NCBI RefSeq assembly: GCF_900100005.1
Contig: NZ_FNEB01000006.1
Location: forward strand, 124,001 to 188,000
From: Lutimaribacter saemankumensis
GTDB taxonomy: Bacteria; Pseudomonadota; Alphaproteobacteria; Rhodobacterales; Rhodobacteraceae
Reading direction: 5' to 3'
Length of the DNA stretch: 64,000 bases
The notes beneath the pieces were generated by a model, which did no database searches, had not been told where the DNA came from, and was given only the letters and a program-made list of their open reading frames with translations. The translations under genes were made by a program, and so were the position numbers. The first letter of the stretch is position 1; the number at the start of each line of letters is the position of its first letter. This document shows positions 10,793 to 60,000 of this stretch, piece by piece.

Positions 10793-12997
10793 TCATTCTG
10801 CGGCGGCTTGCGGCGGTTGGGTGCCTGTTCCCGGATCGCGCACACCGCCGGGACAATAGGTGCCGATCATGTCCCATATGGCTGCCTTGCGCAGCGGTTT
10901 GGTCAGATAGCCGTCCAGCCCGGCGGCAAGTATCGCCTCGCGGTCGCCTTCCATTGCATGGGCCGTCATCGCAACGATCGGCACGTCGCCACCCGGCTGC
11001 TTGCGGATTTCGGCGGTAGCTGCCTTGCCGTCCATTTTCGGCATCGAGATGTCCATGAACACGATGTCGGGTGAAAACCGGCTGAACGCGGCGACAGCCT
11101 CGATCCCGTTGGCGGCGAATTCCAGGTCGATGTCCAACTCCTGCACCATCTTGCGGAACACAAGCTGGTTGGTCCTGTTATCCTCGGCGGCCAGAATGCG
11201 CATCGCGCGTGCGGTGGCAGTCTGCGCCGGCACCAATTCCGATCCGTCCGGGCCGTCCGCTTGATCCGCGCTTGCGGGCGCCATTCCCATATCCTGCAGC
11301 CGCGCGAAAAGCTGCGCGCGCGGGGTCGGTTTCGGCAGAACGGCCTGCACCATACCCCGAGCAGGGTCCAGGTCTGCCACACCCGGATTGGAGCTCAGGA
11401 TCATGATCGGAACGCTGCTGCCGGTTTCGCGGATCGCGGCGGCCAGCTCCATCCCGTCCATGTCCGGCATGTTGTGATCGCTCATCACCAGGTCGATCGC
11501 GTCATCCAGGGCGGCCAGTGCCTCGGCCCCGGTGCTGCAGACGGAACATGAAACCCCAAGCGCCGACATCTGCTTTTCCAGGATACGGCGGTTCACTTCC
11601 AGGTCGTCCACGATCAGCACCCGGCGCAAGTCGCGGGGCAGGGCGGGGGCGTCGGGTTGCGCCTCGGCAAGGGGCAGGGTGATGCGGAACCCGAAAGCCG
11701 TTCCTTCGCCTTCCTTGCTGTCCACCCAGATCGTCCCGCCCATCAGCTCGATCAGCCGCCGCGAAATCGCCAGCCCCAGCCCGGTGCCTTCGAACTGGCG
11801 GTTCTGTTCGCTTTCGACCTGGTTGAATTCGCCGAAGACGTGCTCGATCTTGTCCTCGGGGATGCCGATGCCGGTATCCTCGACCGTCACGTGCAGGTGA
11901 CATGCGCCGGCCTCGTCCGCGATGCCGGCCACGCGCACCAGCACATGACCGGCAGTCGTGAATTTCACGGCGTTTCCCATCAGGTTGGTCAGAACCTGCC
12001 GGACACGGCCGGGATCGCCCATGAACACGGTCGGCAGAAACAGGTCGTAATCCACCAGGATATCCAGGCCCTTTTCGCGGGCGCCGGGCTGCAGCAGCAT
12101 CGCCAACTCGTGGATACTGCGTTCCAGATCGAAAGGTTCGGGATGCAGAGACAGCTTTTCCGCCTCGATCTTGGAATAGTCCAGAACGTCGTTGATGATC
12201 ACCAGCAACGCTTCGCCAGAGTTGCGGATCGTGTCGACGTAAAGCATCTGTTCCTCGCTCAGTGCGGTGTCGGCCAGCAATTCGGCCATGCCGACGACAC
12301 CGTTCATGGGCGTGCGGATTTCGTGGCTCATATTGGCAAGAAAGGCCGATTTGGCGCGGTTTGCCGCCTCGGCCACCTTGCGCGCCTCGCGCAGTTCGGA
12401 TTCGTAGCGCACTGTCGCGGTAATGTTCAGCGCCAGGCTGACCACGTCGCCGCCATGCCCGCGCTGGTCGATCAGCTTGATGTACTGGTCGTTGTAGCTG
12501 CGCATGACAAAGGGTTCGGGCGTGGGCGATTGCCAGCGTGCCATCATCATCGCGCGCCAGTCTGCCGGGGTCATGTCGCCGATATTGACGATCCCCTCTT
12601 CGGTAAGCAGTTGCAGCAGCCGCGGATAGGTGGTGCCCGGCCGCACCTCTTCCAGCCCGTCGAAGAACCCGACATAGGCATTGTTGGCGGCGATCATCCG
12701 GTTGTCGGCATCGAAAAAGGCGAACCCGTCCTGGATCGTTTCGATCGACAGCCACAAACGGCGTTCGGCGATCTCGACCTGCTGGCGTGCCTGCGTGAGA
12801 TCGGATTTCACGCGCTGGTTTTCGTCGCGGTAGGTTTCGACCTGCGCGCGGGTTTCCACGATCTCTTCGGACAATTGCCTGGCGTGCTGGCCCAGCTTGC
12901 GGTTGGCCGCGAACAGCTCGGCCTGCTTCAGTTCGAGCAGCCGTTCCGCCGCCAGACGCGCGCGGCGTTCTTCGGCCAGTTTGTTGGCAAGGCTCAT
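10793..12997 (-). CDS. PAS-containing hybrid histidine kinase with two receiver domains
   Basis: About 734 residues and no membrane segment. Order: a long coiled coil (about 1-75), a PAS domain (TIQDGFAFFDADNRMIAANN), HisKA with MSHEIRTPMNGVVGM, HATPase_c with GNAVKFT, DTGIGIP and GTGLGLAIS boxes, then two receivers with phospho-acceptor aspartates in DLVMSDHNMPDMDG and DIVFMDISMPKMDG. The C-terminus lacks an HPt domain, so an external HPt protein is implied. The ATG at 12997 has GGAG about 9 bases upstream; the ATG at 13054 has no ribosome-binding site. The palindrome array 13108-13298 lies just upstream. Confidence 0.9.
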   Translation of the reverse strand: MSLANKLAEERRARLAAERLLELKQAELFAANRKLGQHARQLSEEIVETRAQVETYRDENQRVKSDLTQARQQVEIAERRLWLSIETIQDGFAFFDADNRMIAANNAYVGFFDGLEEVRPGTTYPRLLQLLTEEGIVNIGDMTPADWRAMMMARWQSPTPEPFVMRSYNDQYIKLIDQRGHGGDVVSLALNITATVRYESELREARKVAEAANRAKSAFLANMSHEIRTPMNGVVGMAELLADTALSEEQMLYVDTIRNSGEALLVIINDVLDYSKIEAEKLSLHPEPFDLERSIHELAMLLQPGAREKGLDILVDYDLFLPTVFMGDPGRVRQVLTNLMGNAVKFTTAGHVLVRVAGIADEAGACHLHVTVEDTGIGIPEDKIEHVFGEFNQVESEQNRQFEGTGLGLAISRRLIELMGGTIWVDSKEGEGTAFGFRITLPLAEAQPDAPALPRDLRRVLIVDDLEVNRRILEKQMSALGVSCSVCSTGAEALAALDDAIDLVMSDHNMPDMDGMELAAAIRETGSSVPIMILSSNPGVADLDPARGMVQAVLPKPTPRAQLFARLQDMGMAPASADQADGPDGSELVPAQTATARAMRILAAEDNRTNQLVFRKMVQELDIDLEFAANGIEAVAAFSRFSPDIVFMDISMPKMDGKAATAEIRKQPGGDVPIVAMTAHAMEGDREAILAAGLDGYLTKPLRKAAIWDMIGTYCPGGVRDPGTGTQPPQAAAE

Positions 12998-13107
12998 GCC
13001 CGGTCTCCGTCCGACTTGGCCCCTGTCAGGGGTCGGGGCAGGTTCCGTGGTCATGGTGAAAATGGCGTTAAGCCGGGCCGGGGAATGTGCGTCTCTGGCC
13101 GGTTAAC

Positions 13108-13298
13108 GACTGCGCGGTATTGACGGCTGACCGCGCGGTTCTGACGGGCGGTGGTATCATGATACCGCCGCCTGTCGCCCGGCGCTTCCGGTTGGCCGTC
13201 GGGGCATGAAAAAACCGCGCGGTTGGAGACCCGAACCGCGCGGTTTCCGTTCATGTTTCGTCAGGAACCGCGCAGTTTCGCGCCCCGACCGCGCGGTT
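13108..13298 (-). repeat. Palindrome array element, copy A (six AACCGCGCGGTT-like sites)
   Basis: Six 12-base sites close to AACCGCGCGGTT lie at 13108-13119, 13129-13140, 13213-13224, 13234-13245, 13266-13277 and 13287-13298. Core spacing is 21, 84, 21, 32 and 21 bases. Read on the minus strand the element starts 20 bases beyond the thiolase stop codon, and its first 38 or so bases match copy B (56180-56369) closely. Sites 21 bases apart could pair as RNA hairpins with stems of 9-12 bp and loops of about 9 bases. Alternatively they could be DNA sites on one helical face. No gene lies in 12998-13318. Confidence 0.8.
13147..13172. promoter_or_regulatory. Near-perfect 26-base palindrome inside array element A
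   Basis: The arms 13147-13159 and 13160-13172 are reverse complements except at one pair (T at 13152 against C). The centre is GGTATCATGATACC. It lies in the 84-base gap between the second and third array sites and has no equivalent in copy B. No U run follows, so it is more likely an operator for a dimeric regulator, perhaps of the hybrid kinase gene, than a terminator. Confidence 0.45.
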
Positions 13299-13318: not shown

Positions 13319-14497
13319 TCACATCCGTTCGATCGCCAGCGCGATGCCCTGCCCGCCGCCGATGCACATGGTGATGAGGGCCTTCTTGCCGCCGATCCGC
13401 TCCAGTTCGTACATGGCCTTGACGGTGATGATGCAGCCCGTCGCGCCGACCGGGTGGCCCAGTGCGATTGCGCCGCCATTGGGGTTCACCTTGGACGGGT
13501 CGAGACCCAGCCCGTTGTTCACCGCAACCGCCTGCGCGGCAAAGGCTTCGTTCGACTCGATCACGTCGAAGTCGTTTATTTTCAATCCGGTACGCGCCAG
13601 CAGGTTCTCGACAGCCGGGACCGGGCCGATCCCCATCACTTCGGGGCGCACGCCTGCATGGGCATAGCCGAGAACGCGGAATTTCGGGTTGAGCCCCGCC
13701 TTTTCCGCCGCACCCGCACGCGCCAGCACGATGGCCGCGGCGCCGTCATTGATGCCGCTGGCATTGCCCGCGGTCACGCTGCCGTCCTTCTTGAACACCG
13801 GCCGCAGCCCCGCAAGCGCTTCGACCGTCGTCGCCTTCGGATGCTCATCCGTGTCGAAAGCCACCATATCTCGTTTGACCTTCACCTCGACAGGCACGAT
13901 CTGGTCCTTGAAGTACCCGGCTTCGATAGCCGCGGCGGCGCGTTTCTGGCTTTCCAGGGCGAAAGCGTCCTGATCGTCGCGCGTGATGCCGTGCTCGGCG
14001 GCCACGTTTTCCGCCGTGACGCCCATGTGCCCGGTGCCGAAGGGGCAGTTCAACGCGCCCAGCATCATGTCCAACGTCTTGATATCACCCATTTTCGCGC
14101 CCCAGCGCTGGTCCTGGATGATGTAGGGGCTGCGCGACATCGCCTCGGCGCCGCCGGCCAGGGCGAAATCGGCGTCGCCCAGCATTAGCGACTGGGTGGC
14201 CGACACGATGGCCTGCGCGCCCGAACCGCACAGGCGGTTGACGTTCATCGCGGGCGTGGTGTCGGGGATGCCGGCCTGGATCGCAGCGACGCGCGACAGG
14301 TACATGTCGCGCGGTTCGGTGTTGATCACGTGGCCGAACACCACATGCCCGATCTGCCCGCCTTCGACGCCGGCGCGCTCCATCGCGGCCTTTGCGGCCA
14401 CGGTCGCGGTTTCGATGGGCGGTGTGCCGGCCAGGCTGCCGCCGAATGTGCCGATGGCGGTGCGTGCCCCGCCCAGGATGACGATATCATCGCTCAT
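13319..14497 (-). CDS. Acetyl-CoA C-acyltransferase (thiolase)
   Basis: 392 residues with all thiolase landmarks: the nucleophilic cysteine in VNRLCGSGAQAIV at about 89, NEAFAAQA at about 317, GGAIALGHPVGATG with the catalytic histidine at about 350, and CIGGGQG with the second cysteine at about 380. It condenses or cleaves acyl-CoA and acetyl-CoA in the cytoplasm. Sequence alone does not separate a PhaA/ThlA biosynthetic enzyme from a BktB-like broad ketothiolase; no phaB or phaC is nearby. The neighbouring aldolase and VOC genes on the same strand may be separate. Confidence 0.93.
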   Translation of the reverse strand: MSDDIVILGGARTAIGTFGGSLAGTPPIETATVAAKAAMERAGVEGGQIGHVVFGHVINTEPRDMYLSRVAAIQAGIPDTTPAMNVNRLCGSGAQAIVSATQSLMLGDADFALAGGAEAMSRSPYIIQDQRWGAKMGDIKTLDMMLGALNCPFGTGHMGVTAENVAAEHGITRDDQDAFALESQKRAAAAIEAGYFKDQIVPVEVKVKRDMVAFDTDEHPKATTVEALAGLRPVFKKDGSVTAGNASGINDGAAAIVLARAGAAEKAGLNPKFRVLGYAHAGVRPEVMGIGPVPAVENLLARTGLKINDFDVIESNEAFAAQAVAVNNGLGLDPSKVNPNGGAIALGHPVGATGCIITVKAMYELERIGGKKALITMCIGGGQGIALAIERM

Positions 14498-29102: not shown

Positions 29103-29873
29103 TCACGCATCCTGCATCCAGCGCAGCCCGGCGACCGTATCGTCCGCGGGGACATATTCCCCGCTGACAATGCCGGCATAGCCGTCGGCATCGAGCCGCG
29201 CGAAGAAAGCCGGATAATCTATCGCACCACCCGGCAATGGTTCGTGCCGGCCTTCGGCGGCGGCCACCTGCACATGCGCCGCGCGGTGGCCGTGACGCGC
29301 CCATGCGGCCATGACGTCGCCTGTGATGCGGTGCGCGTGATAGGCGTCGAATTGCAGCGCCAGGTTCGGCCGGCCGAGCCTGTCCAGTATCGCGGCGGCC
29401 TGGTCGAAATCGATCAGGAAATAGCCCGGCATGTCATCGGGGTTGATCGGTTCGATCGTGAGGGTCAGGCCGGGGGCAAGGCGCGCGGCCGTTGCCGTGG
29501 CCCAATCGAGGTTCTCGATGAACGTATCGGCCGCGTCCTGCCCCGCCGCAAGCCCGGCCATGACGTGCAGCACCGGCACGTCCAGCGCGGCAGCATAGTC
29601 CAGCGACCGCGCGAAATCGGCCCGGAACCGCGCGGTTTCACCGGGGATCGCGGCGGCCCCGCGCCCGCCCGCGGCCCAGTCGTCGGCGGGTGTGTTGATC
29701 AGAACCATGCGTGTGCCCGTGCCTTCGAGCTGCGCGCGCAGATCGTCCACCCGCAGCGCATAGGGAAAGAGCATTTCGACCCGTTCGACGCCTGCCTCGG
29801 ACGCAGCCGGTATGCGGGCCGACAGCGGCAGTTCCACGAAAGCCAGCGTCACGTTCAGGGCAAAGCGTGGCAA
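29103..29873 (-). CDS. Hydroxypyruvate isomerase-like TIM-barrel protein
   Basis: 256 residues from a TTG start at 29873, which has GAAGG about 9 bases upstream and lies 5 bases after the DUF1285 stop. It is a xylose-isomerase-like TIM barrel: RFALNVTLAFVELPL, GVERVEMLFPY, LTIEPINPDDMPGYFL with the metal glutamate, LQFDAYHAHRITGD and AGIVSGEYVPAD. Hydroxypyruvate isomerase (Hyi) interconverts hydroxypyruvate and tartronate semialdehyde. A 2-oxo-tetronate isomerase activity is also possible in this family. ATG starts further upstream overlap the neighbour and are less likely. Confidence 0.85.
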   Translation of the reverse strand: MPRFALNVTLAFVELPLSARIPAASEAGVERVEMLFPYALRVDDLRAQLEGTGTRMVLINTPADDWAAGGRGAAAIPGETARFRADFARSLDYAAALDVPVLHVMAGLAAGQDAADTFIENLDWATATAARLAPGLTLTIEPINPDDMPGYFLIDFDQAAAILDRLGRPNLALQFDAYHAHRITGDVMAAWARHGHRAAHVQVAAAEGRHEPLPGGAIDYPAFFARLDADGYAGIVSGEYVPADDTVAGLRWMQDA

Positions 29874-55449: not shown

Positions 55450-56181
55450 ATGGAATGGCGCGATCAGGGCATATTGCTGCATAGCCGCAGGCATGGCGAA
55501 AGCGCCGCGATCATCGAGGTGTTCACACCCTCGCGCGGGCGCCATGCCGGCGTCGTGCGCGGTGGGGCGGGGCGGCGGATGGCGCCGGTGCTGCAACCCG
55601 GCGCGCAGCTTGACCTGACCTGGCGCGCGCGGCTGGAGGATCACATCGGCGCCTTCACGGTCGAGCCGTTGCGCAGCCGGATGGCGGCGGTGATGGGCGA
55701 CAGGTTGGCGCTGGCGGGGTTGAACGCGGTCGTGGCGCTGCTGCAGTTCGCGCTGCCCGAACGCGAGGCCCATGAAAGCCTGTACCGGCACAGTCAGAAC
55801 TTACTGGATTTGCTGGGAGATTCCGATCTCTGGCCGTTGGCATATCTGCGGTGGGAACAGGTTTTGCTTGAGGATCTGGGCTATGGGCTGGACTTGTCGC
55901 GCTGCGCTGTAACGGGGGTCGAAGAGGGGTTGGCCTATGTCTCGCCGCGCACGGGACGGGCGGTTTCAAGGGCTGGGGCGGGTGACTGGGCCGACCGTTT
56001 GCTGCCCTTGCCCGCCTGCCTTCTGGGACAGGGTGAGGGCACGGATTCCGAGATCGTCGAGGCGTTGCGGGTGACGGGTCATTTCCTGACGCATCACCTT
56101 GCGCACGAGTTGGGCAACAAGCCGTTGCCGGAGGCGCGGCAGCGGTTCGTGGATGCGCTGGCGCGGCGTTCGCTGCGTTAA
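55450..56181 (+). CDS. recO: DNA repair protein RecO
   Basis: 243 residues. [20 protein letters not shown] is the conserved OB-fold start and [16 protein letters not shown] follows. The helical middle has [20 protein letters not shown]. The zinc-finger cysteines of many RecO proteins are largely absent here (one in SRCAVTG), common in alphaproteobacteria. RecO loads RecA with RecR and anneals single strands. Its TAA stop is also the first bases of array element B. Confidence 0.93.
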
Positions 56182-56369
56182 CCGCGCGACCGGGGCGCGA
56201 TACTGCGCGGTTCTTGCCCGAAGGTTACCAAAACCTGCGCGGTTTCCGCCCCGAACCGCGCGTTTCCTGACGAAAGCTTAACCGCAAATGGGCCGGAATG
56301 ACCCCTATGCGGGCCGGATCGCCCGGATTTTCGAAGAACCGCGCGGTCCTGGGCGAAAATCGCGCGGCC
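56180..56369 (+). repeat. Palindrome array element, copy B (six AACCGCGCGGTT-like sites)
   Basis: Sites at 56180-56191, 56201-56212, 56233-56244, 56254-56265, 56337-56348 and 56358-56369. Core spacing is 21, 32, 21, 83 and 21 bases, exactly copy A read in reverse. The opening TTAACCGCGCG-NN-CGGGGCGCGA (positions 56178-56200) matches copy A nearly base for base; further on only the palindromes are kept. The element starts on the recO stop codon and lies in its transcribed direction. No gene lies in 56182-56460. Confidence 0.8.
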
Positions 56370-56460: not shown

Positions 56461-56994
56461 CTAGCGCAGCGCCAGCACCAGATCGACGAGCGTGCCCATC
56501 GGGTCGCCCGTCACCTTTTTCGGCAAGCCGTTGGCGGCGGCCAGGATCAGCTGCGCGATCTCGCGGTTCGACACCCCGATCCGGTCGAGCAGGGCCGCGA
56601 TCACCTGCATGCGTTCTGCATCGACCGAAGCGATCGCCTGGGCCGCGCCCTTGTGCGAGGCGGCCCAGGCGCGCATCGCGGGTTCGGCGCGGGCGAAGGG
56701 GTCGCGCGGGGCGGGGGCCGCGATCTGCTGGGCCATGCCGCGCAAGGCGGCGGTGTGCGTGTCGGCCTCTTCCGCGGCGTCGAACAGGGCGCTGTTGGCC
56801 CCGCCCGTCCAATGCGCGATCAGGTCGGCGTGAAAGGCGGGCACATCCGCGAAATGCCAGTAGAACGATCCCTTGGTCGTATCCAGGGCACGGGCCAGCG
56901 GTTCGGCCTTGAGCGCGTCGGGGCCGTCCTTGGCAAGGGCGGCCAGCCCGGCGTCGAGCCAGTCGGATTTCCTGAGACGTGATGATCTGGCCAT
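56461..56994 (-). CDS. TetR/AcrR-family transcriptional regulator
   Basis: 177 residues starting MARSSRLRKSDWLDAGLAAL. The helix-turn-helix is ALKAEPLARALDTTKGSFYW followed by HFADVPAF, the usual TetR signature. The ligand-binding half is short and has no recognisable ligand motif. The ATG at 56994 is chosen because the conserved TetR start begins there. It is the last gene of the ena-rdhA-tetR minus-strand unit, 52 bases after the dehalogenase-type gene. A likely local regulator; its operator may be in the 61490-61648 divergent region. Confidence 0.87.
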   Translation of the reverse strand: MARSSRLRKSDWLDAGLAALAKDGPDALKAEPLARALDTTKGSFYWHFADVPAFHADLIAHWTGGANSALFDAAEEADTHTAALRGMAQQIAAPAPRDPFARAEPAMRAWAASHKGAAQAIASVDAERMQVIAALLDRIGVSNREIAQLILAAANGLPKKVTGDPMGTLVDLVLALR

Positions 56995-57046
56995 GGCTGC
57001 GCGCCCCGCGATCCCGGTTTCGGGGTCACGCATACTGTGCCGGGCG

Positions 57047-60000
57047 TCAAAGGTCCAATTCAATCACGCCGCCCGGTTCGGCGGCGCGCGATTTGCACAA
57101 AATCATCGCATCCTTGCGCTGCGCTGCGGACAGAACGAAATCGCGATGTTCCACCGCGCCCGACAGCACGCCGCATTTGCAGACGCCGCATAGCCCGTCG
57201 GAGCATTTCACGTCGACATGAATGCCGGCCTCGGCCAGTGCGTCGGTGGCTGATTGGTCGGCGGCCACGTCGATCTGACGCCCGTCGTTCAAACGCAGGA
57301 TGAAGGGGTGGTTTTCGTATTCGGGCTCTTCTGGGACCGAGAAATATTCCAGGTGGCGGGCGTCCTCGGGAAAGCCCGCTTCGGTCGCCGCGTCGATCAC
57401 CGCGTCCATGTAGCGGTCGGGCCCGCAGGTATAGACGTGCCAGCCGGGGCGATAGTCCGCCAGGATCGCGGACAGGTCGGCGCGTGTGCCTTCGTCGCTG
57501 AAATGCAGGTGCACGCGGTCGGCCCATGGGGCGTTTGCCAGCGTGTCGAGATAGCCCGCCGCCGCGCGGCTGGCGCAGGAATAGTGCAGCGCGAAATCCC
57601 GCCCCAGCGCATGCAGGCGGTGGGCGAAGGCGATCATCGGGGTGACGCCGATTCCGCCGCCCATCAGGAACGTCTTTTCCGCGTCCTCGATCAGGCCGAA
57701 ATGGTTGATCGGTTTCGAAATAAACACCCGCCGCCCCGGCGTGAAGATGCGGTGCAGCATGGCCGAGCCGCCGCGGCCCGCATCCTCGCGCAGGACGCCG
57801 ATTTCATAGCGGCCGCGGTCGGACGGATCGCCCGACATCGAATATTGCCGCAGGTATTCGGGCGTCACCAGCACGTCGAGATGCGCGCCCGCCGTCCATT
57901 CCGGCAGAGGCGCGCCGTCGGGGGCGGTGAAGGTGTAGCGGGTGATGTCGGGCGTCATCCGGTCGGCTTCGGCGACCGTCACCTTCACCACGGGCGCGTC
58001 GCCCGGCACGGTGTAGCGGTGGATGTGGCCGGTTTCGCCGCGCGCGGATTTCGCGCGGTAGGCGTCGGCGCCGATCATCGCCTGGTAAGCCTTGATCCCG
58101 GCCTCGCGGTCCATGGGGAAAGGGTAGGGCCACGGCCAGGGCGCAAGCGGGGCGGGGTAGACGGCCAGCGTCTGATCCTCGTACCGCAGGTCGAGACCCC
58201 TTTGCAGGTCGCGCCGGTTCACCGGGGCTGCCGGCGCGCCGTAGCTGCCATCGGGCTGCAATTCGATGTCCCACCACCATTTCTTGGTATCGTTGAGCCC
58301 GCCATTGCCCACCGCATCGTCGAGTTTCGCCAGCAGCGGCGCGGTGCCGGGCAGGTTCATCGCGGCCCAGCGGAACGGGGCCTCGGCGAACAGCCCTTCG
58401 AGGTTCCAGGGGCAGGTTTTCATGCAGCGGCCGCACATCGACCCGCCTTCGGTGGTGATACGGTAGGTGGCGCAGCGCTGGCTGTCGGATTTCCAGATCT
58501 CGTAGCCGTTGAACATCAGTTTCGGCCCGGCGGTGATCGCGCCCGAGGGGCATTCGCGGGCGCATTTGTTGCATGCCTCGCAGAACCGTTGCAGGCCGAA
58601 ATCTATCGGCTTGTCATGGGTTATCGGCATGTCGGTGGTGACGGCGCCGGACTTCAGGCGCGGTCCGAGGAAGGGGTTCAGGATCACCTCGCCGATGCGG
58701 CTGACCTCACCCAGGCCGGACAGGAGCAGAAGCGGAGGTTGCAGCACCTCGCCGTCCATCACGCTGTGGGACTTGGCCGAAAAACCCAGGTTGCGGATCT
58801 GCTGGGCGATGACGGTGCCGAGGATCGAAAAGCGCAGGTAGGCGCGCATGGATTGCGCGACCGATATCCAGTCGTCGCCGCTGGCGCCTTCCATGGTTTC
58901 ATAGCCCTGGTCGACGATCATGCTGATGGCCTGGTCGTGGGGCGGGTCGATCGGGTCGCCAAGCGCGTCGTGGGAATACCAGGCCCAGTCGGGGCAGCGC
59001 GACAGGCCCACCGCATCGAGCCCGAGGAAATAGCTGGCCGCCTTGAGGTTGGCGGCATTGCGCGCCGGATCGGATTGGGCGGGCGTGGGGCCGGGCGCGC
59101 CGTCCTGCAGCAGGACGAAGGCCCCCAGCGCGCGGCGCTGTGCCAGCGAGGGCGCCTGCCTGCGGACATAGAGCCCGCCGCCCGCACCCTTTTGCATCTT
59201 GTCGCCCATGTCGCCGAATTGCGCGCGGGCGAACATGTCGGTGCGCTTGGGCACGCGGGCGACGTTGGGTTCGTCGATATAGGTGGTGGGGCTGTCCACG
59301 CGTTTGAGCGTTTCGAACGGGTGGGGGCCGGCGGCGAAATCCCGTTTGGCATAGGGGTCGGCGGTGCGGCCGGTTTTCGCGGTGTGGCCGGTGCCGAATT
59401 GCCAGCCGGGGCCTTGCATCCAGTACCAGGGTTGTCCGCGCATCGGCGCAAGCGGCCGGTCGGCGGCAAGGTCCATGTCGGTGGTGACGACGGCAAGGCC
59501 ATAGCGGTGGCCGAGCCAGGGCGCGGCCAGATCGGCATCGGCCAGCCCGGCGGCCACGGCCAGCCGGTTCAGGCAGACATCGCTGGCCGCGCCGGAATGC
59601 GCGCGGGCGTCCCAGCCGAGGACGCGGATATAGTTTGCCAGCACCGTCGCGGTTTCGGCGGCGCGCAGGCAGGCACGCTGGGCCTGGGCGTCCATGATCC
59701 AGTCGCTGCCCGGCTCGTCCGCGCGGGGATCGCGCGGCCAGGCATAGAGAAGCACCAGCGCATGGGTATGGTGCGTGATGGGCGCGGGTGGGGTTTCGAC
59801 GCTTTCGCGCAGTTCCGCCATGATCTGGTCGATGCCCGCGGCCAGCGTCTTGGTCTGTTCGGTACGCAGGCGGTCGATCAGGCGGGGGATGCCGCTGTTT
59901 TCGACGGGCCGGTCAAGCCAGGCGGCACCGGGGATGCGCGCCACGCCTGCCATGTCTGCATCGCAGAAATAGGCGAAGGATTTGAGGTGATTGGTGCGCT

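Follow-up and report, generated by a model that had tools for sequence, protein, structure and literature searches.

Layout of the two palindrome arrays

The window, that is the whole 64-kb stretch of DNA that was analysed, carries two arrays of six 12-bp palindromes resembling AACCGCGCGGTT, one next to a beta-ketothiolase gene (array A, 13108–13298) and one next to recO (array B). The 12-mers of array A start at 13108, 13129, 13213, 13234, 13266 and 13287, with spacings of 21, 84, 21, 32 and 21 bp, and those of array B at 56180, 56201, 56233, 56254, 56337 and 56358, with spacings of 21, 32, 21, 83 and 21 bp, which is the spacing series of array A read on the other strand. These coordinates agree with the preliminary description of the locus, which had counted six sites per array and noticed the reversed series. 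The nearly identical first 38 bases that it had pointed out are also real (GCGTTAACCGCGCGGTCGGGGCGCGAAACTGCGCGGTTC in one array and GCGTTAACCGCGCGACCGGGGCGCGATACTGCGCGGTTC in the other): set in a common direction, both arrays open with GTTAACCGCGCGG, and their first blocks are near-identical, including the same 9-bp spacer. The features are as follows.

10793–13054, minus strand: hybrid histidine kinase gene, the next gene beyond array A
13108–13119, minus strand: array A site P6, the most degenerate, GACTGCGCGGTA on the plus strand, with a GTTAACC border on the minus strand
13129–13140, minus strand: array A site P5
13153–13166, no strand assigned: extra palindrome GGTATCATGATACC within the 84-bp gap of array A
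13213–13224, minus strand: array A site P4, a perfect 12-mer
13234–13245, minus strand: array A site P3, a perfect 12-mer
13246–13265, minus strand: array A 20-bp linker, consensus CCTGACgAAAGGTTAACGGA, better conserved than any other part outside the palindromes
13266–13277, minus strand: array A site P2, 21 bp from P1
13287–13298, minus strand: array A site P1, GACCGCGCGGTT on the plus strand, 20 bp past the thiolase stop
13319–14497, minus strand: beta-ketothiolase gene of the BktB type, upstream of array A
29605–29637, no strand assigned: isolated degenerate pair at 21 bp, within a predicted gene
55450–56181, plus strand: recO, the upstream gene of array B
56180–56191, plus strand: array B site P1, overlapping the recO stop codon TAA (GTTAACC)
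56201–56212, plus strand: array B site P2
56213–56232, plus strand: array B 20-bp linker
56233–56244, plus strand: array B site P3
56254–56265, plus strand: array B site P4, followed by CCTGACGAAAGCTTAACC
56337–56348, plus strand: array B site P5
56358–56369, plus strand: array B site P6, followed by GTTAGG
56461–57063, minus strand: convergent gene beyond array B, with a sub-threshold match to the regulator AcuR (18.5 bits, cutoff 247)

Both arrays begin where the gene that reads into them ends, as had been claimed for the thiolase and recO genes. Scanning the window for the 12-mer with up to two mismatches returned 16 matches, compared to 7.2 expected.

The 21-bp pair and the six-site array across genomes

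The perfect AACCGCGCGGTT is present in 69, 78, 10 and 26 copies in the genomes G000 to G003 of the Lutimaribacter clade, respectively, and in 0–4 copies in each of 57 other genomes. Besides the window's own genome (G000), the carriers are Lutimaribacter pacificus DSM 29620, Lutimaribacter sp. EGI FJ00013 and a Rhodobacteraceae MAG (G003); only these four genomes carry the motif, one of them being the mixed MAG with two recO loci. The spaced pattern ACCGCGCGGT-N9..13-ACCGCGCGGT gave 17, 17, 1 and 3 matches in the four clade genomes, always at a spacing of 21, and none in the 57 other genera sampled; all 17 matches in the own genome have this spacing, and the reversed pattern gave 0. In an 85,000-species collection, the spaced motif outside the clade is scattered in unrelated taxa, with one or two stretches each. 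No copy was found in the plasmid and phage sequences searched, and no viral contig had the 21-bp pair. The motif system is restricted to the marine genus Lutimaribacter. A literature search for the 12-mer found no paper printing it, and among the matches listed for its nine-letter core string the titles appear unrelated. The genome-wide search that the preliminary description had proposed yielded further copies with conserved spacing, the opposite of the absence of copies that it had named as refuting.

Two side observations concern the taxa hit by these searches. The MAG encodes RecO twice, on contigs C81 and C261, at 100% and 80% identity to the protein of the window, and this assembly probably mixes two Lutimaribacter species, one of them very near the window's genome. 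A Tannerella MAG carries the spaced motif in a tandem series with 42-bp steps, which looks like an unrelated tandem repeat.

In a 2.37-Mb sample, made up of the own genome and 0.4 Mb of L. pacificus, a partner site lies exactly 21 bp away, on one side or the other, for 48 of the 50 perfect 12-mers, compared to a null rate of 1.3%, and for this reason we consider the pair as the unit. The own genome is a 3.77-Mb draft, with the window on its contig C14, in which the site census covered about 2 Mb in detail and the remainder by pattern. In these roughly 2 Mb, exact CCGCGCGG pairs occur 26 times at distance 21 and 0–3 times at any other distance. Of the exact CCGCGCGG pairs at distances 17–25 in L. 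pacificus, about 41 of 43 lie at 21 bp, and other genera show no preference. A chance origin of the motif spacing is excluded. The pair is also found deep inside predicted genes (11 exact pairs at 21 bp, at most 2 at any other distance). A coding heptad repeat (RAV..RAV) was considered as the sole cause of these intragenic pairs and rejected, since other Rhodobacteraceae have no such excess.

Using a four-site model in which the gap to the third pair was left free at 60–109 bp, we found 21 six-site arrays, A and B among them: 11 in the own genome, and, from a census that was partial in the other genomes, at least 8 in L. pacificus and at least 2 in a third species. The sites lie at offsets of 0, 21, 53 and 74, followed in all 21 arrays by a gap of 73, 74, 83 or 84 bp and then by a last spacing of 21, which places the third pair at 147–158/168–179 bp from the array start. 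In helical turns these spacings correspond to two (21), three (32), seven (73/74) and eight (83/84), and the period fitted to all site offsets over a scan of 9.5–12 bp is best at 10.50 bp, with a vector strength R of 0.97, bearing out the earlier remark that the spacing is close to whole turns. Self-palindromic sites at constant whole-turn spacing are what characterises cooperative operators. Sites P6 and P4 are often degenerate, and the middle sites of array C38 are degraded.

The 20-bp linker with consensus CCTGACgAAAGGTTAACGGA follows site 2 and recurs after site 4 in most arrays of the 83-bp class; in most arrays it is CTGA-N7-TTAAC-like, with TTAA as the first half in a few. GTTAAC strings flank most arrays. 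The palindrome GGTATCATGATACC in the gap of array A, which may be a second operator, has similar counterparts in four more arrays with a gap of the 74/84 class. Single copies of the linker string CTGACGAAAGGTTAACG, not accompanied by the palindromes, are found right at gene 3′ ends in other genera of the Rhodobacteraceae; the signal is weak, with 9 hits compared to 2 control hits in 197 other genomes.

Selection, location and the choice between DNA and RNA

Seven array pairs were taken as orthologous, their flanking proteins being 83–97% identical on at least one side. At these seven loci the palindrome cores are 90.5% identical, the whole 12-mers 85.5%, the linkers 69%, the gaps 52% and the 9-bp spacers 48%, with no indels. 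In a further pair, for which the upstream gene alone was the criterion, the gaps measure 84 and 74 bp and thus differ by about one turn. The isolated pairs that lie at orthologous loci behave in the same way, both 12-mers being kept and the spacer replaced (e.g., C20:248688 and C31:198188). The selection on the palindromes that had been suggested from the comparison of A with B is confirmed across orthologous loci. The arrays within a genome may share one ancestor, and the 21 arrays should not be counted as 21 independent events, A and B in particular; common descent accounts for part of the fixed spacing, with one architecture and orientation across arrays. For this reason, the strongest evidence is that at orthologous loci the sites are kept and the spacers are not, together with the 21-bp pairing rule.

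Every one of the 21 arrays comes after the stop codon of a gene reading into it, with starting points between 2 bp ahead of the stop and 89 bp beyond it, save one at 857 bp, where the gene caller may have missed a gene; array A starts 20 bp past its stop and array B overlaps it. Gene calls came from a codon-bias script and were checked against families at the named loci. Seventeen of the 21 arrays lie between convergent genes, compared to 154 convergent spaces among 1249 intergenic regions (12%). Likewise, 19 of 28 isolated intergenic pairs are within 40 bp of a stop codon, as against 15% of random positions, only four of the 28 are in a divergent position, and some exactly fill a convergent intergenic space. 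The genes beside five arrays (thiolase, hybrid kinase, recO, a possible regulator, a phosphohexomutase-like protein, an M3 peptidase, hspQ, a short protein without a family, olsA and a thiE-like protein) have no common pathway.

The preliminary description had left two readings open, operators on DNA or RNA hairpins between neighbouring sites. According to the second, sites 1-2, 3-4 and 5-6 would pair in the transcript as terminators or as 3′-end processing or stability elements. Such an RNA 3′-end element would suit the conservation and the 3′-end location, including the position of isolated pairs right after stops and those that exactly fill convergent spaces, and the predicted RNA fold of array A is clearly stronger than its shuffles (z = −5.3). 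The fold of array B is little above them (z = −1.7), however, and neither array folds as three simple hairpins. In an ungapped alignment of the 21 sequences, sites 1-2 and 3-4 are 84.3% paired, compared to 84.3% after shuffling, with a covariation score of 0.103 compared to 0.101; a permutation test over all three neighbouring site pairs found no covariation, and the compensatory changes expected from the hairpin reading between sites 1-2, 3-4 and 5-6 did not appear. Substitutions are strand-symmetric, with 28 C-to-T at positions 3/4 and 28 G-to-A at positions 9/10, and this symmetry argues against an RNA stem, in which the G-U resulting from the former is tolerated and the A-C resulting from the latter is not.

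Outside the pair, T amounts to 14–34% at positions 3–8, near background, so that there is no U-tract. T is enriched only at positions 1-2, and a matching enrichment is seen inside the pair and in genes, indicating an extension of the palindrome rather than a U-tract. An intrinsic terminator scan gave nothing at array A, and no Rfam covariance model matched the window at its gathering threshold. An intrinsic (Rho-independent) terminator was rejected for the missing U-tract and the missing compensatory stem changes, and the three-hairpin model was discarded because of the pair counts, the symmetry of the substitutions, the U-tract profile and the folds of single sequences. Furthermore, the pair is enriched within coding sequence, and a hairpin would presumably require neither self-palindromic arms nor a 10.5-bp phase. 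Altogether we regard an RNA function as unlikely, and the results favour binding to double-stranded DNA. The operator reading was strengthened by the strand symmetry, but its own prediction that each 12-mer stays self-palindromic did not hold in the form of covariation, which was not found within sites either; half-sites drift independently, as tolerated operator mismatches would.

We also weighed the possibility that the arrays are a dispersed repeat family of the REP/BIME kind, spread by copying, whose architecture would be inherited rather than selected. The fixed order and orientation, the terminal GTTAAC strings, the near-identical first block of A and B with its shared 9-bp spacer and the 66% identity of 20-bp linkers between non-orthologous arrays are consistent with it. 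The linker is the exception, however: between non-orthologous arrays the 9-bp spacers are 35–48% and the far gaps only 28–35% identical, near the values for shuffled sequences (26–34%; 26% for the far gaps), and at orthologous loci palindromes persist while spacers are replaced. A RAYT-type Y1 transposase (PF01797) is absent from the own genome and was detected in 5 of 14 control genomes, and no copies turned up on the plasmids or phages searched. A REP/BIME repeat was rejected for the lack of sequence common to copies beyond the palindrome (linker excepted) and of a RAYT-type transposase, and spread by copying appears improbable as the main explanation.

A transcription-factor regulon, in which local promoter operators happen to fall near gene ends, would account for the few divergent or upstream pairs, such as those before MocR-type and GntR/FCD regulator genes; it is very unlikely in view of the small divergent share of isolated pairs and of the placement of all arrays at 3′ ends of functionally unrelated genes. 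Inverted uptake sequences can occur as pairs at gene ends, and a DNA-uptake-type or other recombination marker would resemble them in this respect and would fit a genus-specific motif in many copies, but we can hardly credit it, as perfect 12-mers are almost never single and uptake sequences should need neither the 21-bp lock nor the helical phase.

A putative operator and its relation to known systems

The 12-bp palindrome is probably the operator of a putative sequence-specific dimeric DNA-binding protein, which would occupy cooperative pairs and arrays at gene ends. We infer the protein, its dimeric binding and its cooperativity. A dimer would sit on each 12-mer, and two dimers two turns (21 bp) apart would cooperate on the same helix face. 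Three pairs, as present at about a dozen loci in each genome, would build a one-faced six-dimer nucleoprotein complex that spans about 190 bp and may be wrapped, or bridged, via the 73–84 bp gap, whose two classes differ by about one turn. The conserved CCTGACgAAAGGTTAACG and the GTTAAC strings between and around the pairs may hold a second protein, which the CtrA-box-like geometry of the linker (CTGA-N7-TTAAC) may allow to join. Such a complex could block read-through, or it could anchor the DNA topologically at places where positive supercoils accumulate. Since the complexes would lie after stops, mostly between convergent unrelated genes, a job in chromosome structure or as a transcription boundary is likelier than promoter control, and we tentatively propose, from this location, a boundary or architectural role. 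More speculatively still, a putative architecture protein might form six-dimer complexes at convergent gene ends and two-dimer complexes elsewhere, including inside genes, as a boundary system arisen within one genus. The isolated pairs C10:232077 and C10:304888 lie upstream of regulator genes (encoding a MocR-type GntR-aminotransferase and a GntR/FCD protein), which are possible autoregulation leads for the putative binder.

Few of the nucleoid proteins of bacteria are sequence-specific, most of them reading DNA loosely. A code that is confined to one genus, in which pairs are locked at two turns and arrays tolerate a shift by roughly one turn, offers a natural experiment on how DNA is packaged cooperatively, and its gene-end placement would give a direct test of whether protein-DNA boundaries separate convergent genes in bacteria. 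The sharp appearance in one genus would make the protein traceable by comparative genomics and one pull-down.

REP, BIME and RIP elements of enterobacteria are intergenic palindromes bound by gyrase, IHF and Pol I. Like them, the Lutimaribacter sites are palindromes dispersed over the intergenic regions 3′ of unrelated genes, where a protein probably binds them, and are mostly extragenic, but 21-bp pairs occur inside genes too. They differ in that each 12-mer is self-palindromic, pairs are locked at 21 bp with unrelated spacers, six-site arrays are helically phased and no RAYT-type transposase was found in the own genome. A survey of REP elements is available (PMC12306157).

The likeness to GapR is one of lineage and place, both systems being alphaproteobacterial and located at gene 3′ ends and convergent pairs, whereas the Lutimaribacter sites are a specific palindrome. 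GapR is bound where positive supercoils arise, including gene 3′ ends and convergent pairs, and what it reads is the structure of the DNA, not a GC-rich palindrome. In Caulobacter, GapR is described as recognising overtwisted DNA (PMC8360656).

The Lutimaribacter linker, CTGA-N7-TTAAC, has the half-site spacing of the CtrA box, but its first half is usually CTGA and it is located 3′ of genes. The CtrA box itself is TTAA-N7-TTAA(C).

Phased operator arrays and partition sites are known from NrdR boxes about three turns apart, from Lrp and from sopC. As in these, the Lutimaribacter sites are palindromes at whole turns, with dimers that would face the same side; unlike these, which serve one promoter or centromere, they form about a dozen arrays and dozens of pairs per genome at unrelated gene ends. 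By their layout, the arrays would work like a cooperative operator array, placed at gene ends rather than at promoters.
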